64,000 nucleotides of DNA from Ascidia mentula (lineage: Eukaryota > Chordata > Ascidiacea > Phlebobranchia > Ascidiidae), in the NCBI GenBank assembly GCA_947561715.1, contig OX387202.1, positions 20,721,001 through 20,785,000 on the forward strand, written 5' to 3'. Position 1 is the first letter of the stretch; each line of letters starts with the position of its first letter. Shown here in pieces: positions 15,245-44,051 of the stretch. The notes under the pieces are model-generated. The model saw only the letters and a list, made by a program, of their open reading frames with translations. It was not told the origin of the DNA and did not search any database. Position numbers and translations under genes: made by a program.

Positions 15245-16239
15245 CGTTCAGACGACAATGAAAAGGAGATCGACTTGATCTACAAGAGGAACCCAATCTT
15301 CAGGCAATCAAGCGAGCCTTTAAGATCCCCTTTGCTATCCCTTCCATACGAACAGGTGAACCAGCAATTATTACAACTATCCGTCCCAGAATCCAATACT
15401 AACGCAAACTTAATAGTGCTGCAAGTATCCACGTGGTTGTCATAAAACCACGATGACGTCAACATCATCTTACCCGAACTATCTGTGACGTAACATTGCT
15501 CATATTGTTGTGTTGCTAACGAACCAAGTTGATTATTCCAAAAAAAATAAAAAATTAATAGTTTCGCTACTTAGAAAAAAGGGCATAGAAATCATAATCA
15601 ACCGTTGTTCGCTCACAGGTGCCCTCTCGTGACGACCACTACACGTTGAGGGACGAGGCTGTGAGGATTTTAACGTCCTCCTTCAAATGGAAGAACGGAC
15701 TTTTCAGAACATTGAGGAGGAAGCGAAATCACTCCAGGTAAAAAAATGAAAAAATCGTTTTTAAATTTTGCTTTTTGATATTTCTCGAATTCCCGCCTGT
15801 AATTGAGTTTCCTCCCCTATATATTTGCACATGTTATGACAATGACGTTTGTCAGGTAATTGTGGATCTTTCTTTGCAATGAGTGGGGAACGATGTTCAC
15901 ATATCACAATTTATATCAAAGTTTTACTTGACGTCAATCAGCATTCAAAACAGACAATCAAAAAGCATTGCGACACCGTCCAGCCAACAAACCATCTATC
16001 TGTTCGTTCCAGGCGATCATGCGAGTGTGCCACGGCTCCAAGCTATTCCAGGACGAGCTTTACCTCCAATTAATCAAACAAACCGCCATCTACACCCTCC
16101 AACTCACCACAGACGAGCAAATGTGTGACCAGCTTCATGTGACGTCATGTCCGCATTACTGGCATCTCATAGCTTGTATGTGTTGCGCGTACCACCCATC
16201 ACGTCCCGTGCTGTCTTACCTGAAGCTGCATCTGAAGAG
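15245..16239 (+). pseudogene. MYO10: MYO10 copy B: MyTH4 domain (frame broken)
   Basis: MyTH4 with FERM binds microtubules and cargo receptors such as integrins. Exons are 15245-15355 (LIYKRNPIFRQSSEPLRSP), 15619-15737 and 16013-16239 (DELYLQLIKQTAIYTLQL; YWHLIACMCCAYHPSRPV). The middle exon is 119 nt, while copies A, C and D all have 120: GGATTTTAACG here versus GGATTTTTAACG elsewhere. The one-base loss shifts the frame in this copy only. Confidence 0.9.
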
Positions 16240-16376
16240 GTATGACGTCACTAAGTGTGTAAATAACTTGGTTATCCAATGTAGAGTTCGCGGAACCCTT
16301 GACACAACAAAGGTTTACTAAATTTGGGGGTTCTTGGTTAAGATAAACAATCTTTATAGGTTTCGCAGACGAAAAG

Positions 16377-16528: not shown

Positions 16529-19500
16529 ATCCTCCCTACAAACAAATCCTAATTCTCACATCCATATCTGGTTGGCGGATGTCGAGTTCTCGTAGGATAA
16601 CGAGCATGTGTGTCGTTCGAAAGGTTGGAACGGTTATCAAAAACAAAATCGTCGAAACACGGCGAATTACATTGTACAATATCACGAACGTTATTTCCCG
16701 ACATGTCAATTAACTGATTAATGTGACGCTTCCAAAGAAATTTACAATTTACACGTACAAGATAGGTCAGTGGCCCGAGAACTTTTTCAATGACGCCAAC
16801 TGCCCAACGCTTACTACGAGCGCGATAATCTAGGGTTGCCACTTTTTGACCAACTGCAAATGTTCGTGGCCGTTGCCCGTGGTGTTTGTCGATGTGCTTT
16901 TCTACACATTTCTCGACCCTTCCCTCTCCCGCGGATTGAACAAGATCCAGGCGGGTTCTCAGATTGCGCTTGATGAACAGCTTGGCAGGGGACTCTCCTA
17001 ACAATGCATGAGGAGCATTGCGGTAGGACAGCAAAAATCTTGACAGTTTGCTTTTGATGCTCCCGGTTTCGTTTGACATCGACTGTAAACCTCTCTTTAC
17101 GGTTTGTACAAATCTCTCCGCTTGGCCGTTTGTGGCTGGTGAGTATGGAGCAGTCTTCATATGACGAATACCGTTCATCTTCAGGAACGTCTGGAACTCC
17201 TGTGAAATGAATTGAGGACCATTGTCAGAAACAATCTTTTCCGGAATACCGTTCCTCGAGAAAACGTTGCGAAGTTCGTCTATAGTTGCAGCCGCCGTGG
17301 TGGAATGCATTGGGATTACCTCTGGCCACTTAGAATAGGCATCCACGATCACCAAGAGCATGTGGTTTTCCACAGGACCTGCAAAGTCTATATGTATGCG
17401 TTGCCATGGTTTAACACAAGTTTGCCAGGGGTGGTATTTTACTACAGGTGGTACGTTCCTATTTTGTAAGCACCCCGAACAGTTCTTGGACAATTCTTCA
17501 ATATGTTTATCAAGGTTGGGCCACCAGACGTAATTTCGTGCGATTTGTTTCATTTTCACAACACCCAGGTGTCCGTTGTGTAATTCCTGCAAAATAGAGG
17601 ACCTTAGATTTTCTGGAATAACCACTCTGGGTCCCCAAACCAAACATCCGTAAAATGTGGATAACTCATTTCTTCGATAATAATATGGCATATTGGCACT
17701 TTCCGGCACCCAATTGCCCGATGTCACGCAAGCAAACACCCGTGACAAAATTTTATCCGAACGTGTGTGTTTAGCAATATCCTCGGCCGTTACAGGCAAA
17801 AAGTCAATCTGCTTAAAATAAAAATTGCTTGCAGCATCGCACGAGGTTTCAGTGGAACCTTGCGGTAATCTAGACAAACAATCAGCGTTGCCGTGTTGAG
17901 TTGTACTGCGGTATTCGATGGAATAATTGTGGCCGGATAAAATAATGGCATAACGTTGCAAACGTTGTGCCGACATTACAGGAATGCTTCTTTTTGGATG
18001 AAATATAGAAGTGAGAGGCTCGTGGTCAGTCACTAGCGTAAAATGTCGACCAAACAAGTAAATGTGAAACTTTTGCACAGCCCACACAATTGCTAAAGCT
18101 TCTTTATCAATTTGCGAATAGTTTTTCTCGGACTTAGACAGAGATCTCGAGATGTACGCAATGGATCGCTCAATGCCTTCCGGCATTACATGTGACATAA
18201 CTGCCCCAATGCCGTACGGCGATGCATCACATGCTAACTTAATTGGCAAATTTACGTCATAATGCGTAAGAACCTTATCAGAAGCCATCGGTTTACGAGC
18301 TTTATCAAATGACTGAATGCATTCCAAGGACCAGTTCCATCTACGACCTTTCTCTAAAAGTTCACATAACGGATGCAACAAAGATGACAGATTGGGCAAA
18401 AATCGATGATAATAATTAACTAGGCCAAGGAACGAACGAAGCTGGGACACATTCTGTGGGGTCGGACAATTTGTGACCGCCTCAATTTTATCTTGTGATT
18501 TATGCAATCCCTCTTTATCTACAACATGGCCACAAAATTCAATTTGATTCTTGAAAAAATCACACTTGTTCGGATTGACTTTTAACCCATAAGACGACAA
18601 TCGCTGGAGAACATTTCGCAGATTTTCTGTATGTTCTAGATCTGTTGCTCCAGTTATTATCATATCATCCAATAAACATTGTACTCCTTTTAACCCTTGC
18701 AACACTTGATCCATAGCCTTTTGCCATAATGCCGGGGCTGAAGCTACCTCAAAAACTAGGCGGTTGTAACGAAAGAGTCCTTTGTGCGTATTAATGGTAA
18801 GCAAATGTTTACATTCGTCTTCCATTGTCATTTGCAAATACGCATTTTTTAAATCCAGTTTTGTAAAACGATTTCCTCCAGCTAACGTGGCAAAAATATC
18901 AGTTACTTTAGGCAAGGGATATTGCTCTATGTTTAAGACTGGATTTAAAGTTACTTTAAAATTACGGAGCCATCCTTTTTCAACACGGGTACGACAGGGG
19001 TTGCCCACTCACTGTAAGGAACGGACTCCAATATCCCTTCAGATGTCAGCCTCTCTAATTCAGCTTCAACTTTTTGCTTTATGGAGTATGGAAGTGATCT
19101 GGCCTTACAGAAAACAGGTTTTGCGTTAGATTTAAGATATAATTTTCCTTTTATTTCTTTTAATGTTCCTAATTTGTCATCAAACACCTCTGGAAACTCG
19201 GTGACCAGCGGACAGTTTGTTACATTAAACTTCAAACAACTAAAAACTTCATGACTTCCAGATTTACAAAAGGCACGCAGCCACTCACGACCAAATAAAG
19301 TCGGACCATTTATTTCCACAACATAAAGGTTCAAGTATAAACGGGTAGATCGGTATTCCACCGTAACTCGCAGAAACCCCAGAGGAATGATTCTCTCATT
19401 TGAATAAGTTTTTAAAACAATGCTTGTTGGTTGAAGTGTGGAGCCTTTAAACAAATTTTTGTAATCAGCTTCGGACATAATAGACAGTGCAGACCCAGTA

Positions 19501-20351
19501 TCTAGTTCCATTATAACAGGTTTTCCGTTAATTAGGGGTCGAAGCACTATATTATCATTTTCTGTAACACCAATGGAATTTAAACAACATTTTACTGGCA
19601 CCTGTTGATCTTCGGAAGCAATGTAGTTTAAATTTCGCTTGCTTCGATTCCGACAAGTCGATGCAATATGACCAATTCTTCCACACTTGTAACACTTGGC
19701 ACTTTTGAAAAAGCAATTGAATTCTTCATGACCAGAGCGACCACATCTGCCACACGCTCTTCGGTTTCTTAGATTTTCATTTCTACTAAACGTGTTAATG
19801 GACATGTCATTATTTCTCATTATTTTTGTATCAGCATCGGCTTTTTCCAAAGTGTTAGCTATTAGCACGGCTTGGGAAAAGTTCAAATTACTTTCAATTA
19901 ACAATCGCCGCTGTGTGGTCTCCGAAAGTATAACACAAACAAATCTTTGAGTTAATGCATCGTCCAAAAAATCACCGTACTGACAATTTTCACTTAACTT
20001 TCTGATAACAGCAACATACTGATTTACAGATTCTCCAGGAATTTGATCACGCTTTCCAAATTTAAAACGTTCAGAAATTTTGAGGGTCGTAGGGCAAAAA
20101 TGTTCTGTTAAAATTTTCACAATTTCCTTGTATGTTTTTGAGTAAGTTTTGGAGGGTGCAACCAAATCTTTCAAAAGACTGTATGTCTTAGCACCAACAA
20201 AATTCAAAAGCGCCGGTACCTTTTTGTCATTAGGAATGTCATTAATTTTGAAGAACTGTTCAATTCTTTCCACGTACGTTGGCCATGTTTCCGTTTCAGC
20301 ACAAAATTCACCAACACTTCCCAAGTAAGACGATCCCATCCTCGTCGCCAG

Positions 20352-20503
20352 TGTAAAGTATTTGCCTTCAGGTACAGCCACATACACGCTTTCCTCGAGT
20401 AATTTATTGTAATGACCTCTCCGGCATACAGAGTGCTTATAAAGCGGTCGTTACGCTTCAACGAGCACACGTGGTAATTGCAACACAAACACAATATATA
20501 ACA
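20352..20503 (-). repeat. 5' LTR of the Ty3/Gypsy element
   Basis: 152 bp, same sequence as 16377-16528, followed on the + strand by the AAAAG target duplication at 20504-20508. Confidence 0.95.
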
Positions 20504-24898: not shown

Positions 24899-25082
24899 TT
24901 ACTCGCATTTCACTTTCATCTTAGAGCTCATTATTCCGCTCCATGAGTTTTTCCAATACCTCCAACTCATAGTGTTGACACTAGTAGAAGTTCTCGACCA
25001 CGGACCATTGAGTTGGGAATTTGAACAAGCACGATGCCACCAAGCTCCACCCCAAGTCACAGCACAATTAACACTTGGATAC
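24899..25082 (-). CDS. Ficolin-like gene: last fibrinogen-domain exon
   Basis: 184 nt, acceptor TTGCAG, begins [20 protein letters not shown] and ends KMKVKCE then TAA. The NCA...GAWW..C pattern is the C-terminal disulfide and ligand region of fibrinogen-related domains. Joins the preceding exon in phase 2 (AG|G, Arg). Confidence 0.92.
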
Positions 25083-28000
25083 CTGCAATTATAATTAAGT
25101 CGGTTGTCAACAACTCTGTGTTACAACTTATTTAAACTCAGTTAAAACTTGCGCTTAACTAAAACTTTAACGCAACCCCCTGTTTCAGAGCAATTGATTT
25201 TTACAATTGTTGATTTAGGGTGGGCGGTTAACTTTGTCAACGAAAATCAACTAATTTGAGGAAATGCATTTTATGTTTTTTAAAACAACTCGATTTACTT
25301 CGTTAGTAAAACAGAAATATAATCAGACTCGTTGTATCGTTATTACTCACCTATCATTGTCTCTGTTGCGTGTTGTAAATCTTATCCCGTTTAGATTGTA
25401 GGACCCAGTCATGGAATCTCCTGCATTCCCCGAATATCCGGATATAGTAATTGTGTAAGAACTTCCTTCATCGCCAATGCTGAAAGTACTGAAAACAACA
25501 ATGTCATAATGTTTAATTTAATGCAAAGTAATTTAAATAACAACCGATAATTTGTTGTTTTAAATCAATCCGCTTACATTGGTTTGTTGCTCATGGAAAT
25601 GATTGTTAAACATAAAACCCTTTATGACGTAATAAACGACATGTGTCATACATTGTGTTGTGTTGTGTGGGATAATTATTTGTCAACTAAGCAATAAACA
25701 CAAGGTGGGATTAGAAGTTTTGAGAAGGAAACCCAGTTATTTTTCAACTTTAAGTTCACAAACGACTGGAGGTCAATTTTTAAGCAACCTGAAACCTGTT
25801 CAATTTAAATAAGATGTCAATCAAGCATACGATGCTGACATTGCAAGATGTATTTGGAATATCTTACAGGAGAAGCAAAAGTTAGATGAGTTTTTGCCGA
25901 GACTATTCTGCAACCCGCATTTAACTATGTTGTTTGTGACAGAGTTTCTTAATATTTCTGATCCTACGTCACTGCTGGCAGGGTACGTGTGCCTCGGTTA
26001 AACGTTCATTTAAGGCGATTACAAAGAGGTTTTATTGTAGCTGAAGAACAAAGCGGATAAATCTAACTTTCCAGTCAAGATGCAACGTTTTGGCAAAGGT
26101 CAGTACTTGGCACTTAAGATTTTACCACAAGGAGTTGGGCAAAACGACCGCATAAACTCATCTGGGCAACACACTTTCCTGCAACACTGTCGCCTAAGGC
26201 AGTGGTTCTTAACATTATTTATTTTGCGCCAAATCTGTTATACTTTTTTAACTTTTTCTACCGCATGGCATTACCAATTACCAATAAGTGTTCAACACAC
26301 AGTGAATACAGATCATTATATTTCTTTTCCGACTACTTTTGTGTATTTCGGTGCCGACTAATTATCCACCTACAACCCTAAAATTTCCCACCGGATAAGA
26401 ACCACTGGCCTAAGGAATTAACTCTGCAGGCCAATGCACCCATTTTCTTGCATAGAGACCCAACAATATCCAATCAACCACGCAACGACCAGCAGCTAAC
26501 CCAGGGGTGGGCAAAGAGAACACAGAGTGTTTACACTATACAACTTATACACTGACAATCAAGTTGTGTCAGCGTCTTACACGTCGCGATTACGGGATTT
26601 TTGTTGCCTTATTCAAAACATTGGGGGCCGAGCATGTTGAGCAGAAAATCGAAATTTCAAACACTGGATTATGCATGGGTGTTAGATGGAGAATATAATA
26701 ACCATTTTCATCCCATATATCGATGCGGGACACAGCACTAATATTCACTGGATTGCTGCCATCAATTGTCAAACGGTTTGACCGTGGTCATTTTCGCTTG
26801 AACTGCGCAAAAAGGTGACGTTCGACCCAATCCGAGCCCCACTGAGCTCGGTCCTGGCAATCCGCGACCAAGCGATCGCGCAAACCTCAAGAGCGGTGAT
26901 GTGGGGTCGTTTCGAGTTGATTACCATCCCTATGTGTGTGCGGTATCTAAACTTTTTGTTTTCATAATTATTCCGAACCGAGTAAATGCATTGAAACACA
27001 TCAAGAATATTCTGTGTTGCTTCAAACTTAAAACACGAATTTTGTGAATCTGACGTAATAAGGAGGGTATTTCCCTAATGACTTTTAAGATTTTGTTAGT
27101 TATGACGACCTGGCAGCATCAGGTAAATTATCGTTGGAACAAAGGCATTAAATTGAAAACGTTAAATACGTCATAGTCTTACCTATACTCGGCAAATCCT
27201 TGACCTCCGGAAAAATCCTGAAGGTCAACACGAAGGCGACATCTAGTGGACGCACTGGTGATTTGATGCAGTTTCTCCAAACCTGATAAAATTTGTTGGT
27301 TGTAATAATATTGCTGAAAACACTGGAATTTAAATTGAATTAACTGATACTGTTATAGTGACTCTAGGATTGTTACGAAGCGTACTTGAAACGTTTTGCT
27401 TGGTTGGCCTGTATATTTAACTGGGTGTGTACAAGTTATAACAATGTGTTCGGTAAATGTATTCAACCTAAAACAAAGCTGGAACTCCTGTTGCTGCCAC
27501 AGGCATATTGCAATTTAAAATGTACCGCTCTTCTGGCATGAAATATACGTGCTGTATTTTTACGACGTTTCGTCTGCCATTCAGCGAGACCTCATCAGGT
27601 ATTGATGCCGCAATTTCAAAGTAAACTACACTAAAACATTCAGGGGCACAAAAAAGAAAAAGGACACGTTGACACCGCTTGTCAGATCACGTGACAGAGG
27701 CAAAACACGAAACACTGCGGGAGGCGAAACAGTTACAACAAATTGTTATAAACTGCCGGAAAGTAGACACAGTGTTGTTTGTCGTTGACGCATCCACTGT
27801 TTTTGTGTGTGTGAAACGACTCAAGAAAGAGCCGCTTGGTGTGGTCCAACTCCTTTTCCAGAACAAGGAAAGGGCTTTATCGAAGGCAACTTCGTGTCGC
27901 AGTGTCACCGCATGCTTGGCCAACGCAGTCTTGCTGGCATCTTTCGATGCGACATCACGGCGATGCTCTTTCAGTCGCGTCTTAAAGGCCCTTCTAGTTT

Positions 28001-31000
28001 CGCCGATGTAAATACCATCGCAATATTTGCATGGTATTAAACAGACCATTCCCTTTGGCTCGGAAGCTTCCGTAGCAATGGGTCGTGAAATTACATTGCC
28101 AAGCGTTGTATGGGGCTTAGTATAGATTTTAATGCCTAATCCGACATCAATCTTCGCAATGTTTCGTTAAGGCCAGGGTTGAAGGGAATAACATCTGTTC
28201 CGCTAGTGGGCGTTTCATCCTTACGGGTTATTGCCAGTATATTTTGAGCGTGCCATAACAGTGGTGATTGCTAGGGATACCGGTACATTGGTGAACAATG
28301 ACATCACATCAAAGGATACCATGCTGTCATGTTGCTCCACTCGTAAGCTCCGTACCTCGACTGCAAACTCGCGGGAGTTTTTTACATGGTGCGGACTATT
28401 GCCCAACAAAAGGAGCGATTATTTTAGCATTCTTGAGTCGATCCACATTCACAAAAACAGTGGATGCGTCAACGACAAAGAACAATGTGTTTACTTTCCG
28501 GCAGTTTATAACAATTTGTTGTAACTGTTGCGCCTCCCGCAGTGTTTCCTGTTTTGCCTCTGCCACGTGATCTGACAAGCGGTGTTAACGTGTCCGTTTT
28601 TGTGCCCCTCAATGTTTTAGTGCAGTTTACTTTGAAATTGCGGCATCAATACCTGATGAAGTCTCGCCGCATGGCAGACGAAGCGTCGTAAAAATACAGC
28701 ACGTATATTTTATGCCAGAAGAGCGGTACATTTTAAACTAAAACAAACTATTACGCAAAGTTTTGCAACATTTGTACTTGGTTAAGGATTGCTTTATTGG
28801 AATACAAACCCATCCAAAATTCTGTTGATAGATCCCCAAACCCGTTCTTGTAATCCACCCAATCTCTATCGAAACTCACAGATCCATCATAACGACGCTG
28901 GAACACCTGGTATTTATCCAGTAAAACACTTGACACTGATTTGCGGTAAATTGGTCTAAAAATGTTAGATGACCTCCATGTCAATATATGACTTTTCACT
29001 TTCGTGTGTAATTTCCTGACCTTTATAAACAACACAATCCCGGGCGTATGGTTAAATATTGTAGTGTGAAATCGGAAATTACTTGGCGTGCATAATAACC
29101 TCGCTTACCCAACATAGCGCTGGTGCCAGGGATTGCCCACCCCTGTGTTAGTGATATTTACCACATTATCAATACCTGCCACCCATCTTCACAGTAAACT
29201 TTATCTCCCGATCTGAGATGTTGGCGACCTTTAAGATCTGAAGCTTTACAGGAAACCGGCAAAACAGCATATATGAGATTCTGGAGATCTGCAGACGGTT
29301 AAAACTCATCAGATTGGCAGAAGTATTGAGTTAAACTCATTCACAAGCAAGTAGGCGGTGAAAACCACACAATATTTGCACGACCTTGATTATGACCAGA
29401 ATATACCGGTGCCAGATGGAACCCTCTCTGATTCGCACGTGATGACGTATATGTTGGGTTTGCCAATACCTTTGCCCGTAACACACGTCACGACTCGCTT
29501 CTGCCCCTACTGGTGTAGATTGGTGAGCACGCAAGTATCTACAGAGCTAGGGGTAGAAGCGAGTCATGACGTGACTTACGGGCAAAGGTTTTCAGAATTT
29601 GACACATATGTAAGATTTATATTTAAATAAAGTAAAACTCAACTGTTGGAAGTGTTACTCAGTTGACCTTGCAGTTGATCCACTCTGTTCAACAACTCTG
29701 TGAATAAAATGTTCGATGTATGTGTGGGCGTTGGATGTTAAGTGCATGAACTTAACTGTTAGATGTGCGTTTCTGCTCACTCTGCATTTGATCCACTCTG
29801 TTCGACAACTCTGTGAATATAATGTTAGATGTGTGAGTGGGCGTTGGATGTTAAGTGCATGAACTTAACTGTTAGATGTGCGGTTCTGCTCACTCTGCAG
29901 TTGATCCACTCTGTTCGACAACTCTGTGAATAAAATGTTCCATGTGTGAGTGGGCATTGAAAGTTAAGTGCATGAACTTAACTGTTAGATGTGCGGTTCT
30001 GCTCACTCTGTATTTGATCCACTCTGTTCGACAACTCTGTGAATAAAATGTTAGATGTGTGAGTGGACATTGAATGTTAACTGCATGAACTTAACTGTTA
30101 GATGTGCGGTTCTGCTCACTCTGCAGTTGATCCACTCTGTTCGAAAACTCTGTGAATAAAATGTTAGATGTGTGAGTGGACATTGAATGTTAAGTGCATG
30201 AACTTAACTGTTAGATGTGTGGTTCTGCTCACTCTGCAGTTGATCCATTCTGTTCGACAACTCTGTGAATAAAATGTTAGATGTGTGAGTGGACATTGAA
30301 TGTTAACTGCATGAACTTAACTGTTAGATGTGCGGTTCTGCTCACTCTGCATTTGATCCACTCTTTTCGACAACTCTGTGAATAAAATGTTAGATGTGTG
30401 AGTGGACATTGAATGTTAACTGCATGAACTTAACTGTTAGATGTGCGGTTCTGCTCATTCTGCAGTTGATCCACTCTGTTCGACAACTCTGTGAACAAAA
30501 TGTTAGATGTGTGAGTGGACATTGAATGTTAACTGCATGAACTTAACTGTTAGATGTGCGGTTCTGCTCACTCTGCATTTGATCCACTCTTTTCGACAAC
30601 TCTGTGAATAAAATGTTAGATGTGTGAGTGGACATTGAATGTTAACTGCATGAACTTAACTGTTAGATGTGCGGTTCTGCTCACTCTGCATTTGATCCAC
30701 TCTTTTCGACAACTCTGTGAATAAAATGTTAGATGTGTGAGTGGACATTGAATGTTAACTGCATGAACTTAACTGTTAGATGTGCGGTTCTGCTCATTCT
30801 GCAGTTCATCCACTCTGTTCGACAACTCTGTGAACAAAATGTTAGATGTGTGAGTGGACATTGAATGTTAACTGCATGAACTTAACTGTTAGATGTGCGG
30901 TTCTGCTCACTCTGCAGCTGATCCACTCTCTTCGACAACTCTGTGAATAAAATGTTCCATGTGTGAGTGGACATTGAATGTTAACTGCATGAACTTAACT

Positions 31001-34000
31001 GTTATATGTGTGGTTCTGCTCACTCTGCAGTTGATCCACTCTGTTCGACAACTCTGTGAATAAAATGTTAGATGTGTGAGTGGACATTGAATGTTAACTG
31101 CATGAACTTAACTGTTAGATGTGCGGTTCTGCTCACTCTGCAGCTGATCCACTCTCTTCGACAACTCTGTGAATAAAATGTTCCATGTGTGAGTGGACAT
31201 TGAATGTTAACTGCATGAACTTAACTGTTAGATGTGTGGTTCTGCTCACTCTGCAGTTGATCCACTCTGTTCGACAACTCTGTGAATAAAATGTTAGATG
31301 TGTGAGTGGACATTGAATGTTAACTGCATGAACTTAACTGTTAGATGTGCGGTTCTGCTCACTCTGCAGTTGATCCACTCTGTTCGAAAACTCTGTGAAT
31401 AAAATGTTAGATGTGTGAGTGGACATTGAATGTTAAGTGCATGAACTTAACTGTTAGATGTGTGGTTCTGCTCACTCTGCAGTTGATCCATTCTGTTCGA
31501 CAACTCTGTGAATAAAATGTTAGATGTGTGAGTGGACATTGAATGTTAACTGCATGAACTTAACTGTTAGATGTGCGGTTCTGCTCACTCTGCATTTGAT
31601 CCACTCTTTTCGACAACTCTGTGAATAAAATGTTAGATGTGTGAGTGGACATTGAATGTTAACTGCATGAACTTAACTGTTAGATGTGCGGTTCTGCTCA
31701 CTCTGCAGTTGATCCACTCTGTTCGACAACTCTGTGAATAAAATGTTCCATGTGTGAGTGGACATTGAATGTTAACTGCATGAACTTAACTGTTAGATGT
31801 GCGGTTCTGCTCACTCTGCAGTTGATCCACTCTGTTCGACAACTCTGTGAACAAAATGTTAGATGTGTGAGTGGACATTGAATGTTAACTGCATGAACAT
31901 AACTGTTAGATGTGCGGTTCTGCTCACTCTGCAGCTGATCCACTCTCTTCGACAACTCTGTGAATAAAATGTTCCATGTGTGAGTGGACATTGAATGTTA
32001 ACTGCATGAACTTAACTGTTAGATGTGAGGTTCTGCTCACTCTGCAATTGATCCACTCTGTTCGACAACTCTGTGAATAAAATGTTAGATGTGTGAGTGG
32101 ACATTGAATGTTAACTGCATGAACTTAACTGTTAGATGTGCGGTTCTGCTCACTCTGCATTTGATCCACTCTGTTCGACAACTCTGTGAATAAAATGTTA
32201 GATGTGTGAGTGGACATTGAATGTTAACTGCATGAACTTAACTGTTAGATGTGCGGTTCTGCTCACTCTGCAGTTGATCCACTCTGTTCGACAACTCTGT
32301 GAATAAAATGTTAGATGTGTGAGTGGACATTGAATGTTAACTGCATGAACTTAAATGTTAGATGTGTGGTTCTGCTCACTCTGCAGTTGATCCACTCTGT
32401 TCGACAACTCTGTGAATAAAAGGTTCGATGTGTGAGTGGGCGCTGGATGTCTAGTGCATGAACTTAACTGTTAGATGTGTGGTTCTGCTCACTCTGCAGT
32501 TGATCCACTCTGTTCGACAACTCTGTGAATAAAATGTTCGATGTGTGAATGGGCGCTGGATGTCTAGTGCATGAACTTAACTGTTAGATGTGTGGTTCTG
32601 CTCACTCTGCAGTTGATCCACTCTGTTCGACAACTCTGTGAATAAAATGTTAGATGTGTGAGTGGACATTGAATGTTAACTGCATGAACTTAACTGTTAG
32701 ATGTGTGGTTCTGCTCACTCTGCAGTTGATCCACTCTGTTCGAAAACTCTGTGAATAAAATGTTCGATGTGTGAGTGGACATTGAATGTTAACTGCATGA
32801 ACTTAACTGTTAGATGTGTGGTTCTGCTCACTCTGCAGTTGATCCACTTTGTTCGACAACTCTGTGAATAAAATGTTCCATGTGTGAGTGGACATTGAAT
32901 GTTAAGTGCATGAACTTAAATGTTAGATGTGCGGTTCTGCTCACTCTGCATTTGATCCACTCTGTTCGACAACTCTGTGAATAAAATGTTAGATGTGTGA
33001 GTGGACATTGAATGTTAAGTGCATGAACTTAACTGTTAGATGTGTGGTTCTGCTCACTCTGCAGTTGATCCACTCTGTTCGACAACTCTGTGAATAAAAT
33101 GTTCGATGTGTGAGTGGACATTGGATGTTAAGTGCATGAACTTAACTGTTAGATGTGAGGTTCTGCTCACTCTGCAGTTGATCCACTCTGTGCGCCAAAG
33201 CTGTCAACAAAACTCACGTTTACGTTGGCATGTTTTCGTCAGTCAAATAGTTTGGGGCTAAATGGTAAAAAAATCCTTTAAGCCGAAAAATCCTATTAAA
33301 AATAAGCTTCAGCTTAATCCCTGACAAGTGATGCAAATCTTGACTGTGGTTGCTATATGCAATACTTACTTTGCACAAAACAAATCTCTGCCATATATCC
33401 AGGTCACTTGTGTCGTACCACGAGGCTTGCAAGTGTAAGTCAGATAACTAACAAACAATAAAAACACAATACTTGACATAAACAAACTATTTTCAAAAAT
33501 AATCTGCTTTTATTGTGGGTGGTACGACATGAGTGACCTGTAGTAACCCCGACGGACTGTTCCTTTACGAAGGGGATTTGAGTTTTGTCACGTGATTGGT
33601 GAGTACGCAGGTATTTACACCACTAGGGGCAGAAGGGAGTCATGACGTGAGTTACGGGCAAAGGTTTTAGCATTTGTTATCTTGACACATCTGTGAGATA
33701 TCAATTTATATGAAAATGAAACTCAACTGTTGGAAGTGTTACTCAGTTGACCTTGCAATTGATCCACTTTGTTCGACAACTCTGTGAATAAAATCTTCGA
33801 TGAATTTACTTTAATATGATTTTATGAGAGTTCACCGTGTAGGGGATTTGTTGTACTGCTGTGTTTGTATCAAATATCTATCTGTACTGCTTGGTTTGTT
33901 AAAGTTTCCCTATCCAATATTAAATTTTGTCGAAAAGTGTTTAGAGAAGAATGTTATACCTGTAACAAGTCTCATCAAATCTTCTTTGCCAGCCACAGGT

Positions 34001-34221
34001 CCTTGGTCTCCCTTTTCACCTCGGTGACCTCGAGGTCCACGTGGTCCCATCTTTCCTGGTCTTCCTGTCTCTCCTCTGGCACCTTTCAAGCCGGAATGTT
34101 CTATCTCTGATCCTTGTTGTTGTCCGTCACAAATGGAAACAACTCTGCATACTTGTTGTTGTTGGTGAGTTATAACAAGATGGCCGACCAACAAAACTCC
34201 AAACAAAATAAATTTAAACAT
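24899..34221 (-). CDS. Ficolin-like lectin with expanded stalk-exon array
   Basis: Gene model on the minus strand: exon 33960-34221 (signal peptide, collagen), stalk exons 33728-33781 and up to 32 more in 29644-33200, then fibrinogen-domain exons 29176-29288, 28810-28906, 27183-27282, 25351-25488 and 24899-25082 (stop TAA 24899-24901). All junctions use GT-AG and every phase matches; the stalk exons are phase 1-1 and 54 nt. Ficolins are secreted pattern-recognition lectins that bind acetylated sugars and, in vertebrates, activate complement by the lectin pathway. With one stalk exon the protein is 315 aa, a usual ficolin length; with all 33 it is about 891 aa. Introns contain a hAT-type MITE (26200-26407) and a Penelope-like element (27514-28738). 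The gene faces MYO10 copy B tail to tail. Which stalk exons are really spliced in cannot be told from DNA. Confidence 0.85.
25351..25488 (-). CDS. Ficolin-like gene: fibrinogen-domain exon with Ca-site motif
   Basis: 138 nt. Reads [20 protein letters not shown], then [19 protein letters not shown] and RNRDND. The RDND run matches the calcium-binding loop (DxDND) of the family, and GYSGNAGDS is a typical block. Confidence 0.92.
26200..26407. mobile_element. hAT-type MITE, 208 bp
   Basis: Starts CAGTGGTTCTTAAC and ends AAGAACCACTG, inverted termini typical of hAT elements. A perfect 8-bp target duplication GCCTAAGG flanks it (26192-26199 and 26408-26415). No coding capacity. It lies in an intron of the ficolin-like gene. 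Confidence 0.92.
27183..27282 (-). CDS. Ficolin-like gene: fibrinogen-domain exon
   Basis: 100 nt, acceptor TTTTATCAG, donor GTAAGA. Reads [20 protein letters not shown] then [12 protein letters not shown], the classic 'GLxxIHxLT...LRVDLxDF' block. Phases join on both sides (G|GT Gly; AG|T Ser). Confidence 0.92.
27567..27598 (-). ncRNA. Hammerhead-ribozyme-like core in Penelope-like element (left arm)
   Basis: Read on the minus strand: CTGATGA, a GTCT...AGAC stem, then GAAAC and GTCGTAAA. This is the conserved hammerhead core order (CUGANGA, stem II, GAAA). Penelope-like elements are known to carry hammerhead motifs. Activity cannot be judged without folding stems I and III. Confidence 0.7.
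28653..28684 (+). ncRNA. Hammerhead-like core in Penelope-like element (right arm, altered)
   Basis: Inverted partner of the left-arm core: CTGATGA, a stem, but GAAGC instead of GAAAC. The invariant adenine is replaced, so this copy is expected to be inactive. Confidence 0.6.
28810..28906 (-). CDS. Ficolin-like gene: fibrinogen-domain exon
   Basis: 97 nt, acceptor AAATACCAG, donor GTTTGT. Reads [20 protein letters not shown] then [13 protein letters not shown], the strongest signature of the fibrinogen-related domain. Ends with one base completing the Gly codon of the next exon. Confidence 0.93.
29176..29288 (-). CDS. Ficolin-like gene: first fibrinogen-domain exon
   Basis: 113 nt. Reads [20 protein letters not shown] then [17 protein letters not shown]: the first disulfide pair and the 'YC..DGGW' block of the family. 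It begins with two bases that complete a codon, so it needs a phase-1 exon before it, exactly what the stalk exons supply. The acceptor used (CTGCAG at 29289-29294) is the best of two candidates. Confidence 0.85.
29469..29588. mobile_element. Palindromic MITE-like element
   Basis: Begins CCTTTGCCCGTAA and ends TTACGGGCAAAGG. Arms of about 50 bp are reverse complements (CGACTCGCTTCTGCCCCTA versus TAGGGGTAGAAGCGAGTC). Only the right half recurs at about 33596-33666, beside the first stalk exon. Confidence 0.75.
29644..33200 (-). repeat. 113-bp tandem array of 32 stalk-exon cassettes
   Basis: Units keep an exact 113-bp spacing from 29697 to 33200 with no indel at the points checked. On the minus strand each holds a branch-point-like CTAAC, acceptor TTTATTCACAG, a 54-nt open frame and donor GTTAAGT, leaving a 59-bp intron. 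The frame (after two bases) reads [17 protein letters not shown] with small changes: N to K, S to Y, Q to E, L to F. Exon copy k (0-31, low to high) spans 29644+113k to 29697+113k. No copy contains a stop. Copies 24 and 29 have TTTAAG where the donor GT should be. The copy at 29644-29697 is the variant [17 protein letters not shown] with donor GTTGAGT, matching the detached exon at 33728. An 18-residue period equals five alpha-helical turns and suits a coiled-coil stalk. Confidence 0.85.
33402..33540. repeat. Inverted repeat beside the stalk array
   Basis: GGTCACTTGTGTCGTACCAC (33402-33421) and GTGGTACGACATGAGTGACC (about 33520-33539) are reverse complements with two mismatches, about 98 bp apart. 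It may be the ends of a small foldback element. A strong donor-like GCAAAGTAAGTATT lies just below it on the minus strand, but I could not assign an exon. Confidence 0.6.
33596..33795 (-). repeat. Duplicate of the 29521-29711 block (half-MITE plus stalk exon)
   Basis: From ATTGGTGAG through the stalk exon this block matches 29518-29711 with scattered changes and small gaps. The two copies flank the 113-bp array, so the array expanded between the halves of a duplicated exon-plus-intron unit. Confidence 0.75.
33728..33781 (-). CDS. Ficolin-like gene: first stalk (neck) exon
   Basis: 54 nt, acceptor TTTTATTCACAG, donor GTTGAGTTT. Reads [17 protein letters not shown]. The preceding collagen exon ends with G, this exon starts AG, giving Glu and a continuous helix [15 protein letters not shown]. 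This is the expected trimerising neck between collagen and lectin domains. Confidence 0.8.
33960..34221 (-). CDS. Ficolin-like gene: signal peptide and collagen exon
   Basis: 262 nt. I start at ATG 34219-34221 because [19 protein letters not shown] is a good signal peptide; a longer frame begins at 34272. After cysteines in [10 protein letters not shown] come eleven Gly-X-Y triplets ([19 protein letters not shown] onward), then [10 protein letters not shown] and a GTATAAC donor in phase 1. A short collagen stretch of this kind fits the ficolin/collectin stem. Confidence 0.9.
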
Positions 34222-35612: not shown

Positions 35613-36240
35613 AATCTCGTATAAATGAGTGCAAGCAATGAACCACACAGCATTTGCAGCCTGTATAAATGAGTGCAAGCTATGAACCACTCAGCATTTG
35701 CAGCCTGTGTAAATGAGTGCAAGCAATAAGCCACACAGCATTTGCAGCCTGTATAAATGAGTGCAAGCAATGAACCACACAGCATTTGCAGCCTGTATAA
35801 ATAAGTGCAAGCAATGAACCACACAGCATTTGCAGCCTGTATAAATGAGTGCAAGCAATGAACCACACAGCATTTGCAGCCTGTATAGATGAGTGCAAGC
35901 AATGAACCACACAGCATTTGCAGCCTGTATAAATGAGTGCAAGCAATGAACCACACAGCATTTGTAGCCTGTATAAATGAGTGCAAGCAATGAACCACAC
36001 AGCATTTGCAGCCTGTATAAATGAGTGCAATCAATGAACCACACAGCATTTGCAGCCTGTATAAATGAGTGCAAGCAATGAACCACACAGCATTTGCAGC
36101 CTGTATAAATGAGTGCAAGCAATGAACCACACAGCATTTGCAGCCTGTATAAATGAGTGCAAGCAATGAACCACACAGCATTTGCAGCCTGTACAGATGA
36201 GTGCAAGCAATGAACCACTCAGCATTTGCAGCTTGTATAA
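35613..36240 (+). repeat. 44-bp minisatellite, about 14 copies
   Basis: Unit CAGCCTGTATAAATGAGTGC + AAGCAATGAACCACACAGCATTTG, strictly 44 bp. It lies in the intron just before the FERM exon piece. The matching place in unit 2 (40361-40412) has little more than one copy, so the expansion postdates the duplication or contraction occurred there. All three minus-strand frames happen to be open, producing a spurious 228-codon frame. Confidence 0.92.
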
Positions 36241-36349
36241 ATATCTTGTGCTGACATTCGCAAATATTATCCAATCAACAAGTTGATGGTCGCTTACGAG
36301 ATCACAAACGAAAACGTCAACGCGAAATTCAAGAACGTTGACACCAAGA

Positions 36350-39300
36350 ACAAATGATAGCAATTCTGGGGAACCCTCGCTCGAGTGAAGGATCGAGAGA
36401 AGGAATGACATCAACGGTGACTCATTTAAATACGCCAAATTTTTCGCCTTTTGATTCGACATCAGAGCTGTGGGTTGACTACTGGTCTCACGTGGTACCC
36501 GACGATCGACTGGCAAAAGTATTTTTGACGAATCAATCTTCAGCTGTGTACGAGATGCTTTTCAATTTGGCTGCACAGGAATCGCCACCAAGAGATATCA
36601 ACGAGCTCACGTTAGAAGAAATCGTCCAACATATGAAGTTTCAGTTCGACCCCAAACGTTTCATAGTCCGTGAAACAAGTTTTGGACCGACATGAAGCGC
36701 AAGCCGGGTGAAACCATTCAAGAGCTCGCTGTTCGCATTCGACAAAGCGCAGCAACTTGCGACTTTGCATCCATCACAGATCGATTGGATGAAGCTTTGC
36801 GCACTCGTTTCATCTGTTCAATTGAAAACGAAGCGGTTTTGAAAGCTCTGTTCAGGACAAAGGATGACGAATTGAGTTTTGCTCGTGCAATTGACATTGC
36901 GGTCGAAACCGAAGATGCTGCCAAAATGGCTAAAGAAACTGTTTACTGGACGCAGCCATCGACTTCGTTGTTCAAGGTACGTGCTACAGCTAAACCGTGG
37001 GAGAAACGTAAAGTGGATTCGAGGTCGGTGCAATTACCTGAAGGGAGGAAATGTTATCGATGTGGCAAGACTTCGCGTCAGGATTCCGAATGTCGTTTCA
37101 AGAATGCAACCTGTCATTTTTGTCACCTAACTGGACACTTGGAATCCGTTTGCCGCAAAAAGATTCGACAGCGCACGTCCCATGGCATTAAAAGAATTGA
37201 GAAACTAAATTGTGTTTCCAATATTGCAGCAGCCACGCTCAAGTTGGAAGTTCCAATTTGTATTAACGATGGTTCGCAGTATCAGTCTGCAAGCAGGCAC
37301 AACTTGCCGGTGATGGGCACATTTACGTCTGCTACCAGTTGCGCAGATTCCGGAAAGGTAGCTTACCTTCATTTCAACGTCTGCGACATTCAACGTCTGA
37401 ATTTGGTGGGGCGGAACGAACTACAGAAAATGGTATTTCGTTAGACAAAGTTCTGTACGGCAAGTCAAACTTACAAGCTGGAGAGGTACTACAAGCCGTA
37501 ACCGCCCAAGAACCGCAAGATATATCACTATATGAAGAGTGTGTCAAGTTGTGCTCTGAATTTGCAGAACTGTTTAAGCCCAATCCAGGCTGTCTTCAAG
37601 ATTATGAACTGGAGGTACAACTCAAGGACGACACAAAACCAGTTTTCCGCAAACCGCGTTCAGTTCCGTTTGCTATGCAGAGTGATTTGTCCCAGGTTTT
37701 GGATTCCGGGATAAGCAAAGGAATTTGGACTCCAGTGAAGTTCAACGACTGGGGTACGCCAATAGTTCCGGTCCGCAAATCAATCACTTCTTCGCAAAAG
37801 CCTGCTTTAAGAATTTGTGGTGATTATTCAGTGACTTTCAATTCACAATTGGAGGTTCATCGTCACCCATTACCATTACCAGAAGATTTAATGAGAAATT
37901 TAGGTGGTGGTTTCACGAAGATCGATTTGGCGGATGCGTACAATCAAATCAAGTTGGGACCAAAAAGTCGGAAGAAGCTTGCTCTGAGCACACATCGCGG
38001 AGTTTTATTACAGAACGTATTGCCTTTTGGTATCAGTTCGGCGCCAGCTTATTTTCAAGAAATTATGGATGATATCACTAAAGACCTACCGGGTGTTGCA
38101 GTATATCTAGATGATATATTGGTCAGTGGTTCGTCTGCCAAGGACCACCTTCACAATCTCAAACGTTTATTGTAACGGCTCCAAGACAAAGGCTTACGTT
38201 GCAGGAAGGAAAAATGCAAATTTGCTCAACAGCAGGTTGAGTACCTTGGCCATGTTCTCTCCAACAAGGGCATCACGAAGGGTGCCAAAGTCGACGCTGT
38301 ACAACGTATGCCTGCTCCACACGATGTACCAACACTGCGGTCTTTCCTTGGATCTGTACAATTTTATGCAAAATTTTTGCCCGCAGAATTTTCAACTGTA
38401 GCAGAACCACTCTATCGTCTCACAAAGAAAGGCATTCCTTGGAAATGGAGTCAAAAAGAAGAACGTTCTTTCAATCAGCTGGAGGAATTGCTATCCAGAG
38501 ACCAGGTGTTGGTTCATTTTAATCCATTCATTCCTGTTGATATTGCTTGTGACGCATCAAGCGTTGGAATTGGTGCTACGTAGTTTTACCGTTTTCCCGA
38601 CGGCAGTGAGCGGCCAATTGCCAATGTATCGAAAACTTTGACACAAAGCCAGAGGAATTGCAGTCAAATTCAAAAAGAGGCTTTGTCAATCGTTTACGCT
38701 CTAAAGAAGTTCTTTCAATATTTGTTTGGAAGAAGATTCATCCTGATAACGAATCATAAACCACTGATGTCTTTATTTGGTCAACAAAAGCCTACACCAG
38801 CTTTGGCAGCCAACAGGTTGGCTCGATGGGCACTTTTCTTGAACCAATTTCAATACACCATCGAGTACAGAAAAACCAACGAACACAATAATGCTGATGT
38901 TTTAAGCCGACTTCCACAAGGCGATGATGTCACTTTCGACGGAGAGGAATGTGCCGATGACGTAACATCGTTTGTGCAATCGAAACAGTAGGAATGCAAG
39001 TGCAAATGGACTCCTCAGCACTTCGAAAAGAATCTTTTGACGAAGCAGGGTATGAAGCCGTAATACATCAGTTTGGACAATATTGCTGTCCAAAACGCAA
39101 TGTCACTTTTGAGAGGTACAAGTTTTTTTCTCGACATCAGCATCAAGGTGAGCCCATCGACCAATATATAATGGAATTAAATAACCTTTCTGCAAGTTGC
39201 AAGATTCGTTGATAAGAGATCAAATTGTGTGTGGACTTTGTGATATTCCATAAAAAAGAAAATCTCACTTTGACTAAAGCTGTACAAATTTCTGTCACAA

Positions 39301-39480
39301 ATCAAACGGTGGCAACGAAAAGTTTGCACATGCAACCACGTGTCGAGGCTGGGCATGTTGTTGTGCGCCGGAATGCCCGTCAATTGGAGCGGCGTTACCT
39401 CAATCAAGTCGAGAGGCAAGTTCCAGAGCCTCGTGTTCATACTGTGCTCTACGTCACGTGGCAAGGCAGTGTCCAGCTTG
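36350..39480 (+). mobile_element. Ty3/Gypsy fossil fragment 1
   Basis: Parts seen in order: gag with a CCHC-type knuckle (CYRCGKTSRQDSECR), reverse transcriptase (AVYLDDILVSG), RNase H and its connection region, then a piece of a second, different gag-like frame. No LTRs, integrase, primer-binding site or target duplication found. Degenerate, with several breaks. It sits between MYO10-derived sequences and has a paralogue at 40570-43760. Confidence 0.85.
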
Positions 39481-39493
39481 AGGGATTTAATAA

Positions 39494-39893
39494 CCCTCGC
39501 TGTGAGAGCCTGTATAGTTGGACGATTCCGTCTTACCATGTAAAACACGTAACACTTAAAATCATAAAACGAATGTAATAAAGTTTAATAATATGTATGT
39601 TGCCTACACAAAAAGCACTTGTTTAAACAGGATCAGTCTGGTATAATACAAGGGAAATATACGTTGATTCCTTTAAGCATGTGATTTTTTGCGTAATATT
39701 ACTGAACATTGACCGGCAGCTGTAGTTTTGATCCACACTTTTTATACTAGAAGTTACGCCACCTCTATTTCACTACAGACGCAGACAGGTTTGTTGGAGA
39801 TTGTGGTGTACGGGAGGAAACACACCCTCCGACTCAGCACGGAGGTAGAGGAAGACGCGAACATCTGGAGCAGTGAGATCCAGGCTATGATAG
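39494..39893 (+). pseudogene. MYO10 intron and partial PH exon (copy C, first piece)
   Basis: From CCCTCGCTGTGAG the sequence follows the intron downstream of the second PH exon (compare 2430 and 14500), then exon 39784-39893, which is cut after IQAMID by the duplication join. Confidence 0.88.
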
Positions 39894-40800
39894 ACGGTCA
39901 GCTGCAATACGAGCTTGATCTGAACTGGATAACGTTGCGTTTCCAACTACACAGACCCGAGCAAACTCCAAGCAGTAATCACGACGCAACGGTAACTTGC
40001 TTAAAACCTCCTTCAATGTGCCGGAAACCTTTGAATTTCCGAGGACCCAATCAGACCTGGCGTAACGAATGACGTCACTGCGTATCAAAATACATCTAGG
40101 CAATGGAAGTCGGTTTTAAATAACTTAAAGTGCGTGCGCTCGACTGCAAGAGTTTGTAAACTTCTACATTGATTCTGGCTTCGAGTTATGGCTACATTTA
40201 ATTGGTTTGTTCGGGAACAAGACGTAGTTGATCTTAATTCAATTTAATGAATATTTAAATTAGCTGATTTTCATTGCTTCGTTCCGTTTAACCCCCCCAA
40301 AAAAATCCAAAAATAAAAATATAAAAATGCTAATGGATCAAAAACAAAATCTTTAAATCTCGTATAAATGAGTGCAAGCAATGAACCACTCAGCATTTGC
40401 AGCCTGTATAAATATCTTGCGAATATAAAACATGGATTCTTTTTCCAGTGCTGACATTGGCAAATATTATCCAATCAACAAGTTGATGGCCGCTTACGAG
40501 ATCACAAACGAAAACGAAGACTTCTACTTCAAACGAACCGAGAACGTCAATGCGAAATTCAAGAACGTCGACACCAAGAACAAATGATAGCAATTCTGGG
40601 GAAGCCTCGCTCGAGTGAAGGATCGAGGGAAGGAATGGCATCAACGGTAACTCATTTAAATACGCCAAATTTTTCGCCTTTTGATTCGACATCAGAGCTG
40701 TGGGTTGACTACTGGTCTCACGTGGTACCCGACGATCGACTGGCAAAAGTATTTTTGACGAATCAATCTTCAGCTGTGTACGAGATGCTTTTCAATTTGG

Positions 40801-41108
40801 GTGCAAAATATTTGGAGTTAATAACTTTGAAGATTTACCTATTCAACATCTAGGTCCGTACAGCGGCCTGACATATCGTTAATGATGACGTCGCTGCTGT
40901 GCTCCCATGTTGTTGTCACGCGACATGCCTCTGGCTTGTTGCGCGTTGGTGCTGCTGCTGTTTCCCTTCTGCCTGCTCAGTCCTTTATTACCCTGACGCT
41001 TTTCTTGCATGCACTCATTGTAGTACTGATGATGAACGCAGTTAGTGTTCGAAACGTTTACTATTACTAATGTATAACAGCATTTTAGCTTTGGCTTTCA
41101 TCTTCAAA
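40801..41108 (+). mobile_element. 308-bp retroposed insertion with 13-bp target duplication
   Basis: Flanked by CTTTTCAATTTGG at 40788-40800 and 41109-41121; fragment 1 has a single copy at this site. A 13-bp duplication suggests target-primed insertion, as for LINEs, SINEs or Penelope-like elements. Near its end is a hammerhead-like core. No coding capacity; family unknown. Confidence 0.8.
41026..41055 (+). ncRNA. Hammerhead-like core in the 308-bp insertion
   Basis: CTGATGA, then GAAC...GTTC able to pair as stem II, then GAAAC. This matches the order of conserved hammerhead core bases. Stems I and III are not obvious, so the call is tentative. Confidence 0.45.
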
Positions 41109-44051
41109 CTTTTCAATTTGGCTGCACAGGAATCGCCACCAAGAGATATCAACGAGCTCACGTTAGAAGAAATCGTCCAACATATGAAGTTTCAGTTCGA
41201 CCCCAAACGTTTCATAGTCCGTGAAACAAGTTTTGGACCGACATGAAGCGCAAGCCGGGTGAAACCATTCAAGAGCTCGCTGTTCGCATTCGACAAAGCG
41301 CAGCAACTTGCGACTTTGCATCCATCACAGATCGATTGGATGAAGCTTTGCGCACTCGTTTCATCTGTTCAATTGAAAACGAAGCGGTTTTGAAAGCTCT
41401 GTTCAGGACAAAGGATGACGAATTGAGTTTTGCTCGTGCAATTGACATTGCGGTCGAAACCGAAGATGCTGCCAAAGTGGCTAAAGAAACTGTTAACGGG
41501 ACGCAGCCATCAACTTCGTTGTTCAAGGTACGTGCTACAGCTAAACCGTGGGAGAAACGTAAAGTGGATTCGAGGTCGGTGCAATTACCTGAAGAGAGAA
41601 AATGTTATCGATGTGGCAAGACTTCGCGTCAGGCTTCCGAATGTCGTTTCAAGAATGCAACCTGTCATTTTTGTCACCTAACAAGACACTTGGAATCCGT
41701 TTGCCGCAAAAAGATTCGACAGCGCACGTCCCATGGCCTTAAAAGAATTGAGAAACTGACTTGTGTTTCCAATATTGCAGCAGCCACGCTCAAGTTGGAA
41801 GTTCCAATTTCCATGAACGATCGTTCGCTGAACATAGAACTTGATAATGCTACAGGCGGAAATTTTCTGTCAAAAGAAACATGGAAGAAGATTGGTTCTC
41901 CAAAGCTGCTCAAAGCAACGTCCCAGTATCAGTCTGCAAGCAGGCACAACTTGCCGGTGATGGGCACATTTACGTCTGCTACCAGTTGTGCAGATTCCGG
42001 AAAGGTAGCTTACCTTCATTTCAACGTCTGCGACATTCAACGTCTGAATTTGGTGGAGCGGAACGGAATACAGAAAATGGTATTTCGTTAGACAAAGTTC
42101 TGTACGGCAAGTCAAGCTTACAAGCTGGAGAGGTACTACAAGCCGTAACCGCCCAAGAACCGCAAGATATATCAATATATGAAGAGTGTGTCAAGTTGTG
42201 CAGTGAATTTGTAGAACTGTTTAAGCCCAATCTAGGCTGTCTTAAAGATTATGAACTGGAGGTACAACTCAAGGACGACGCAAAACCAGTTTTCTGCAAA
42301 CCGCGTTCAGTTGCGTTCGCTATGCAGAGTGATTTGTCCCAGGTTTTGGATTCCGGGATAAGAAAAGGAAACGACTGGGGTACGCCAATAGTTCCGGTCC
42401 GGAAATCAATCACTTCTTCGCAAAAGCCTGCATTAAGAATTTCTGGTGATTATTCAGTGACTGTCAATTCACAATTGGAAGTTCATCGTCACCCATTGCC
42501 ATTACCAGAAGATTTAATGCGAAAGTTATGTGGTGGTTATGGCTTCACGAAGATCGATTTGGCGGATGCGTACAATCAAATCAAGTTGGGACCAAAAAGT
42601 CGGAAGAAGCTTGCTCTGAGCACGCATCGCGGAGTTTTATTGCAGGACGTATTGCCTTTTGGTATCAGTTCTGCGCCAGCTTATTTTCAAGAAAATATGG
42701 ATGAAATCACTAAAGACCTAACGGGTGTTGCAGTATATCTAGATGATATATTGGTCAGTGGTTGGTCTGCCAAGGACCATCTTCAGTGGTTGGTCTGCCA
42801 AGGACCACCTTCGCTGAAGGACTTGCTATCCAGAGACTGTTGGTTCATTTCAATCCATCCATTCCTGTTGGTATTGCCTGTGACGCATCAAGTGTTGGAA
42901 TTGGTGCTACGTTGTTTCACCGTTTTCCCGACGGCAGGGAGCGGCCAATTGCTAATGTATCGAAAACTTTGACACAAAGCCAGAGGAATTGCAGTCAAAT
43001 TCAAAAGGAGGCTTTGTCAATCGTTTACGCTTTAAAGAAGTTCTTTCAATATTTGTTTGGAAGAAGATTCATCCTGATAACCACTGATCTTTATTTGGTC
43101 AACAAAAGCCGACACCTGCTTTGGCAGCCAACAGGTTGGCTCGATGGGCACTTTTCTTGAACCAATTTCAGTACAGTACCGACTTCCACAAGGCGACGAT
43201 ACAACTTTCGACGGAGAGGAAAGTGCCGATGACGTAGACATCGTTTGTGCAATCGAAACAGTTGGAATGCAAGTGCAAATGGACACCTCAGCACTTCGAA
43301 AAGAATCTTTTGACGAAGCAGGGTATGAAGCCGTAATACATCAGTTTGGACAATATTGCTGTCCAAAACGCAATGTCACTTTTGAGAGGAACAATTTTTT
43401 TTCTCGACATCAGCATCAAGATGAGCCCATCGACCAATATATAATGGAATTAAATAACCTTTCTGCAAGTTGCAAGATTCGTTAATAAGAGATCAAATTG
43501 TGTGTGGACTTTGTGATATTCCATAAAAAAGAAAATCTCACTTTGACTAAAGCTGTACAAATTTGTGTCACAAATCAAACGGTGGCAACGAAAAGTTTGC
43601 ACATGCAACCACGTGTCGAGGCTGGGCATGTTGTTGTGCGCCGGAATGCCCGTCAATTGGAGCGGCGTTACCTCAATCAAGTCGAGAGGCAAGTTTCAGA
43701 GCCTCGTGTTCATACTGTGCTCTACGTCACGTGGCAAGGCAGTGTCCAGCTTGAGGGATTTAATAACCCTCGCTGTGAGAGCCTGTATAGTTGGACGATT
43801 CCGTCTTACCATGTAAAACACGTAACACTTAAAATCATAAAACGAATGTAATAAAGTTTAATAATATGTATGTTGCCTACACAAAAAGCACTTGTTTAAA
43901 CAGGATCAGTCTGGTATAATACAAGGGAAATATACGTTGATTCCTTTAAGCATGTGATTTTTTGTGTAATATTACTGAACATTGACCGGCAGCTGTAGTT
44001 TTGATCCACACTTTTTATACTAGAAGTTACGCCACCTCTATTTCACTACAG

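Follow-up and report, generated by a model that had tools for sequence, protein, structure and literature searches.

The neck of the lectin DC-SIGNR (CLEC4M, or L-SIGN) consists of tandem helical repeats of 23 amino acids, each encoded by 69 bp, that carry the lectin head; the number of neck repeats differs from person to person and is believed to affect binding (PMC2971551, PMC3261175). In primates, the NBPF/Olduvai system shows repeated amplification of coding exons inside genes (PMC9313022). Here we describe a 113-bp tandem array within a ficolin-like gene of the ascidian Ascidia mentula, located in a 64,000-nucleotide stretch of DNA (assembly GCA_947561715.1, contig OX387202.1, positions 20,721,001 to 20,785,000 of the forward strand) that we refer to as the window and on which coordinates are given. 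Judging from the DNA, we estimate a probability of roughly 70% that the array is a series of genuine neck (stalk) exons belonging to a presumably secreted ficolin-like lectin, with stalk length set by exon copy number.

As in CLEC4M, variable in-frame repeats run from stem to head, and here their number varies from 2 to 40 among array paralogues. In CLEC4M, a membrane lectin, a single exon (exon 4) contains the repeats, whereas here every repeat forms a separate exon accompanied by an intron, the gene is of the ficolin type and the copy number reaches 40. The amplified NBPF blocks are described as approximately 4.7 kb long with six exons each, whereas the amplified element here is one 54-nt exon plus a 59-nt intron. 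The predicted protein resembles vertebrate and ascidian ficolins in its collagen repeats, neck and C-terminal fibrinogen domain and apparently in its N-terminal cysteine, and ascidian ficolin transcripts are known (PMC5465252). No amplified neck-exon array in a ficolin was found among the listed titles and abstracts of open-licence literature on ficolins, ascidians and tandem exons. Dscam also contains tandem arrays of duplicated exons (PMC1397879). Those arrays undergo mutually exclusive splicing; the window exons, by contrast, are symmetric, differ little from one another and could be joined as a whole set. The closest analogues are the variable number of tandem repeats in the DC-SIGNR/CLEC4M neck and the exon amplification of NBPF.

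The array and its gene in the window

The array occupies positions 29644-33781 on the minus strand, between an exon encoding collagen repeats (33960-34221) and the first fibrinogen-domain exon (F1, 29176-29288), and contains 33 units, each with an open 54-nt frame of phase 1-1. Tandem Repeats Finder (TRF) reported 31.4 copies of 113 bp with 95% matches. Unit 1 spans 33781-33728 and unit 2 spans 33200-33147, after which units 3-33 follow at 113-bp steps to 29697-29644. A 113-bp unit is not an integer number of codons, and the repeats sit apart as 54-nt stretches separated by 59-nt spacers. The original prediction, which proposed a variable-length stalk from the window alone, had placed the array, its repeat length, its open frames, the phase-1 end of the collagen exon and the phase-1 start of F1 correctly. 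It had, however, assigned the same splice motifs to every unit, and these are present in most units and not in all (TTCACAG in 32/33, GTTAAGT in 28/33 and CTAAC in 20/33). All 33 units have an AG acceptor and 31 have a GT donor, the donors of units 4 and 9 reading TT, and 31/33 units are fully intact. The 59-bp intron length holds after units 2-32 but not for intron 1, which is 527 nt long (33201-33727).

Two types of unit can be told apart. Units 1 and 33 (type A) differ from each other at 3 nt and from the internal consensus at 13 and 12 nt, respectively, whereas units 2-32 (type B) depart from it by 0-5 nt. Within the window array, units 16-18 and units 27-29 have the same sequence, consistent with unequal exchange or conversion.

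The array lies in a complete ficolin-like gene that extends over 24899-34221 on the minus strand. Exon 1 (33960-34221, 262 nt, donor GTATAAC), delimited by its translation and the spliced frame, encodes 11 Gly-X-Y triplets read from the translation, and its Pfam Collagen match of 22.3 bits falls under the 27.2 cut-off. The translation starts with a hydrophobic segment, likely a signal peptide, and its N-terminus contains cysteines (VCRVVSIC, read by eye). Cassette 1 (33728-33781, 54 nt, donor GTTGAGT) is of type A and is followed by intron 1, which breaks the 113-bp register and by eye seems to hold an inverted-repeat element. Cassette 2 (33147-33200) is the first B-type unit, and the B-type cassettes 3-32 (29757-33087) are 54-nt exons with 59-nt introns between them. 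Cassette 4 (32921-32974) has an open frame, and retention of the intron behind its TT donor would meet an in-frame TAA; cassette 9 (32356-32409) has the same donor defect. Cassette 33 (29644-29697, donor GTTGAGT) is again of type A.

Five fibrinogen exons follow on the same strand, namely F1 (113 nt, entered in phase 1), F2 (28810-28906, 97 nt), F3 (27183-27282, 100 nt), F4 (25351-25488, 138 nt) and the last exon (24899-25082, 184 nt), which ends in the stop TAA. When the exons are joined, the frame stays open and encodes 297 amino acids with no cassette, 315 with one, as had been predicted, 855 with 31 and 891 with all 33. The spliced product matches Pfam Fibrinogen_C at 1.6e-51, and its best solved-structure matches are FIBCD1 (2e-39), tenascin-R and ficolin-2 (9.5e-37). 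The intron between F2 and F3 contains a minus-strand open reading frame (ORF; 27687-28166) that by eye resembles the GIY-YIG endonuclease of a Penelope-type element.

Related loci in the genome

The gene belongs to a large family, which the view of a single window had not revealed, and the arrays of this family carry some defects. A search of the 195.8-Mb genome with a 451-bp probe from the window array gave matches on two contigs, C70 and C69, corresponding to at least 39 array loci besides the window; every listed place was retrieved, and locus counts are lower bounds. Scanning 40 loci, the window included, with a profile of the window units gave 405 same-strand matches, and removal of four matches below 50 bits left 401 cassettes, with 2 to 40 per locus. 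An AG acceptor, a GT donor and an open frame were present together in 380/401 units, and two arrays were fully intact (40/40 units in L032 and 31/31 in L012).

At least one ficolin flank exon was present in the retrieved stretch of all 40 array loci: both the collagen exon and F1 in 23, F1 only in 14 and the collagen exon only in 3. F1 was open in each of the 37 loci that have it, although its acceptor lies off the projected place in L040 and L043. L036 and L039 have a damaged F2, and the collagen exon of L043 is without most of its collagen part. The retrieved upstream stretch of 14 array loci contained no collagen exon, and a further 5 kb upstream of one of them, L010, still contained none. 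Reading upstream of the L010 array showed different neck-like exons, 63 and 66 nt long and likewise of phase 1-1. L010 and L046 form a second subfamily, in which such neck-like exons, and no collagen exon, were found near the array.

A search for the collagen exon gave at least 40 places, 26 of them in array loci; of the other 14, 10 were read and 4 were left unread. The 10 loci read outside the arrays had one to three cassette matches each, and six had one. The single cassette match of L051 has a stop inside it, and L053 looks degenerate. The genome contains at least 176 matches to Fibrinogen_C, and a second fibrinogen cluster on C70 (16.8-18.0 Mb) accounts for dozens of fibrinogen-domain matches. 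In L050, the one gene read in this cluster (approximately 17.5 Mb), the collagen exon has a tail of helix-like character, and cassette matches did not exceed 2.6 bits. Glyco_hydro_6 matches lie at two places in the genome, a feature that points to a tunicate.

Sister arrays differ by whole units. L009 (32 units) and L021 (33 units) differ by four substitutions in matched units plus one extra unit, and L014 (9 units) and L017 (8 units) differ by one whole unit. The earlier proposal that stalk length follows copy number is strengthened by these pairs and by the range of 2-40 cassettes across at least 40 array loci.

Diverged paralogues provide a separate view of the unit. L048 has a single cassette, NLTNKVDLLQTKFNESSS, of 54 nt and phase 1-1, in which the sequon is kept and which is 92% identical to the window array over 25 nt; its two flanking introns gave no match to the window array at E <= 0.01. 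In L049 the second cassette matches the window array, and two of the three introns do not. The first L049 intron after the collagen exon includes a 26-nt stretch with 85% identity to the window array (E = 0.002), which may be a decayed cassette. The ratio of nonsynonymous to synonymous differences per site (pN/pS) was below 1 in 15/15 pairs that include L048 or L049 (0.18-0.84), comparisons that involve very few sites and no significance test.

The predicted stalk and the proposed use of the array

The mechanism we propose begins with a single ancestral 54-nt exon of phase 1-1, joining the collagen stem to the lectin head. This exon and its short intron would have gone through tandem duplication, after which unequal exchange among the near-identical 113-bp units would have produced copy numbers of 1 to 40 across the paralogues; such exchange is the probable source of the copy-number ladder. 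Each unit gained or lost would change the protein by exactly 18 residues, with the head domain in frame at any number. At ideal alpha-helix geometry, 18 residues would make five turns, or approximately 2.7 nm, and most units would carry one N-glycosylation sequon; 31 units would measure approximately 84 nm and 40 units approximately 108 nm, with the fibrinogen heads at the stalk end. The collagen stem of ficolins trimerises the protein. The stalk is probably glycosylated and helical, and we infer that it would be oligomeric, its length tuning the reach of the lectin heads. The array would be transcribed and spliced, with splicing perhaps also choosing length; most intact cassettes would be spliced in (31/33 in the window gene), and the two units with broken donors would be skipped.

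Of the original proposal of a variable-length helical stalk, the part that stands is a set of symmetric exons in an intact ficolin-like gene with a helix-like repeat pattern between collagen and head. Residues 2, 6 and 9 are hydrophobic in 401/401 units, and an N-x-S/T sequon occurs in 381/401. The helical amplitude at period 3.6, judged against 20000 shuffles of each sequence, was reached by 574 shuffles for type B, 80 for type A and 270 for an L049 unit. Position 13 is leucine in A-type and L049 units. Single changes that break the hydrophobic core were absent (0/8, p = 0.049), in a test picked after the data were seen.

Several of the same measurements speak against a helix. The amplitude of L048 was ordinary (reached by 1996 of 20000 shuffles), the core test is weak and falls to 0/6 (p = 0.085) when hydrophobic residues are taken to include Ala, Trp and Cys, two of the five expected core positions are polar in type B (Q13 and T16), and the repeated cassette gives Pfam leucine-zipper matches that do not reach the cut-off. 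The cassettes might instead encode a flexible glycosylated linker and no helical stalk at all. This would suit the sequon of 381/401 units, the polar composition rich in Ser, Asn and Gln, the polar residues in the B-type core and the L048 result, but it sits poorly with amplitudes that exceed those of most shuffles in types A and B, with the invariably hydrophobic residues 2, 6 and 9 and with L13 in the A-type and L049 units. We consider a flexible linker unlikely.

The splice signals bear on whether the array is used. Among the 339 units with 113-bp spacing, in which variant types were counted, the acceptor TTCACAG showed 1 variant type of 21 possible compared to 48/132 in the mid-intron (Fisher p = 0.0024), the lowest count in the 107 seven-base windows. 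Counts were likewise low at donor positions +2 to +8, with 4 types of 21. Mean diversity was 0.038 in the exon, below that of the mid-intron by 0.048 (permutation p = 0.013). The 113-bp length was changed in five units, each time within the intron; no exon indel was seen, and the largest distance of an exon from a consensus was 7 nt.

An intron of 59 nt appears to be normal in this genome, judging from a biased sample of five junctions in chaperonin genes picked for short-looking gaps. The junctions allowed several open solutions, and those keeping the expected protein were taken. For one junction, in a gene that resembles CCT-epsilon, a GT-AG intron of 59 nt fits; the fits at three more were 70, 72 and 85 nt, and the fifth yielded no assignment. 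Two alternative donors were considered and set aside. The donor GTTCAT at +6 would create a 59-nt exon with an in-frame TAA and a broken frame. The donor GTGAGC within the exon would define a symmetric 30-nt exon, with which the sequence by itself is compatible, but it leaves the conserved +2 to +8 positions unexplained.

Other features of the units weigh against functional neck exons. Nonsynonymous (44/121) and synonymous (12/33) variant types are equally common within arrays, exon variant types as a whole (57/162) are no rarer than those of the mid-intron (48/132), and one exon window, AGCAGAA, comes close to the acceptor in conservation with its 3 types. Donors are broken in 20/401 units; the +1 G is replaced by A or T in 18/339 and the +2 T is lost in 1/339. 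GTTAAGT after A at position -1 is not a textbook donor. In both L009 and L021, cassette 6 would create a stop codon on being joined to the next exon, and a stop lies inside one cassette of L043; with nonsense changes amounting to 1 type of 8 possible plus that L043 stop, there are too few to judge. A genome search for spliced retrocopies, using patterns for the cassette-cassette, F1-F2 and collagen-cassette junctions and allowing up to 3 mismatches, found none, but it is uninformative because the F1-F2 junction, expected in any spliced copy, was equally not found. Recent homogenisation combined with harmless in-frame skipping would explain the equal variant classes, the broken donors and the junction stops, as would partial disuse. 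Given the equality of nonsynonymous and synonymous types within arrays, the case for neck exons rests instead on the splice signals and the diverged paralogues.

One possibility, which shares with the neck-exon reading the inclusion of the array, is that splicing varies, with many donor-acceptor pairings generating a ladder of lengths from each gene. Near-identical splice signals across units, the fact that every skip stays in frame and the two broken donors of the window gene all point in this direction. We also take GTTAAGT to pair in the bulge register. Bulge-register donors are reported to accompany alternative donor choice (PMC9311317). The 59-nt introns would be expected on general grounds to favour pairing of neighbouring sites, and we regard variable splicing as unlikely.

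It is also possible that only the edge cassettes are used and that the internal units are an intronic minisatellite of disused exon copies skipped by splicing. In favour of this stand the equality of variant types, the 20 broken donors, the existence of single-cassette genes and the two edge units, 1 and 33, which resemble each other and make up a type of their own. A disused minisatellite would not, however, be expected to keep its acceptor as the most conserved stretch of the unit, to lack exon indels or to remain intact in 40/40 units, as in L032, and we judge this explanation unlikely. That the array is free-standing satellite DNA with no link to a gene, as its high copy number and homogeneity might suggest, is contradicted by the ficolin exon beside 40/40 retrieved array loci and by a diverged one-cassette gene that keeps the exon and not the intron, and is very improbable indeed.

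Genomic surroundings and implications

The remainder of the window contains repeated and mobile sequence. An ORF with a MyTH4 domain (3812-4192, 7.9e-11) has similar ORFs at 15932-16321 and 59560-59895; its presence at least three times, on both sides of the ficolin gene, suggests a large segmental duplication unit. Approximately 1.4 kb upstream of the ficolin gene lies a 44-bp tandem repeat (35619-36242, 14.2 copies, 95% matches) in which several minus-strand frames are open. By eye, several long retroelement-like ORFs surround the gene, at 16549-20450 (minus strand) and at 36674-43160 and 50491-55729 (plus strand), some of them duplicated.

A wider view of the family is more tentative, and we hold it to be doubtful: the approximately 50 paralogous ficolin loci would act as a digital ruler in which 1-40 near-identical exons set the distance of the head, whole-unit copy changes keep the frame and each gene gains a further series of lengths from the free pairing of its splice sites. 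Geometry, in addition to head sequence, would then diversify recognition. Annotation pipelines might treat arrays of this kind as satellites, mask them and list only a short ficolin. Provided that the array is spliced in, an exon count would encode a dimension of the protein, at approximately 2.7 nm per recombination step for an ideal helix and with no risk to the frame. The family would then offer a clean system for the role of lectin-head spacing in innate recognition, would test how the spliceosome handles 30-40 near-identical adjacent exons and would open to study the concerted evolution of an exon and its intron under weak constraint.

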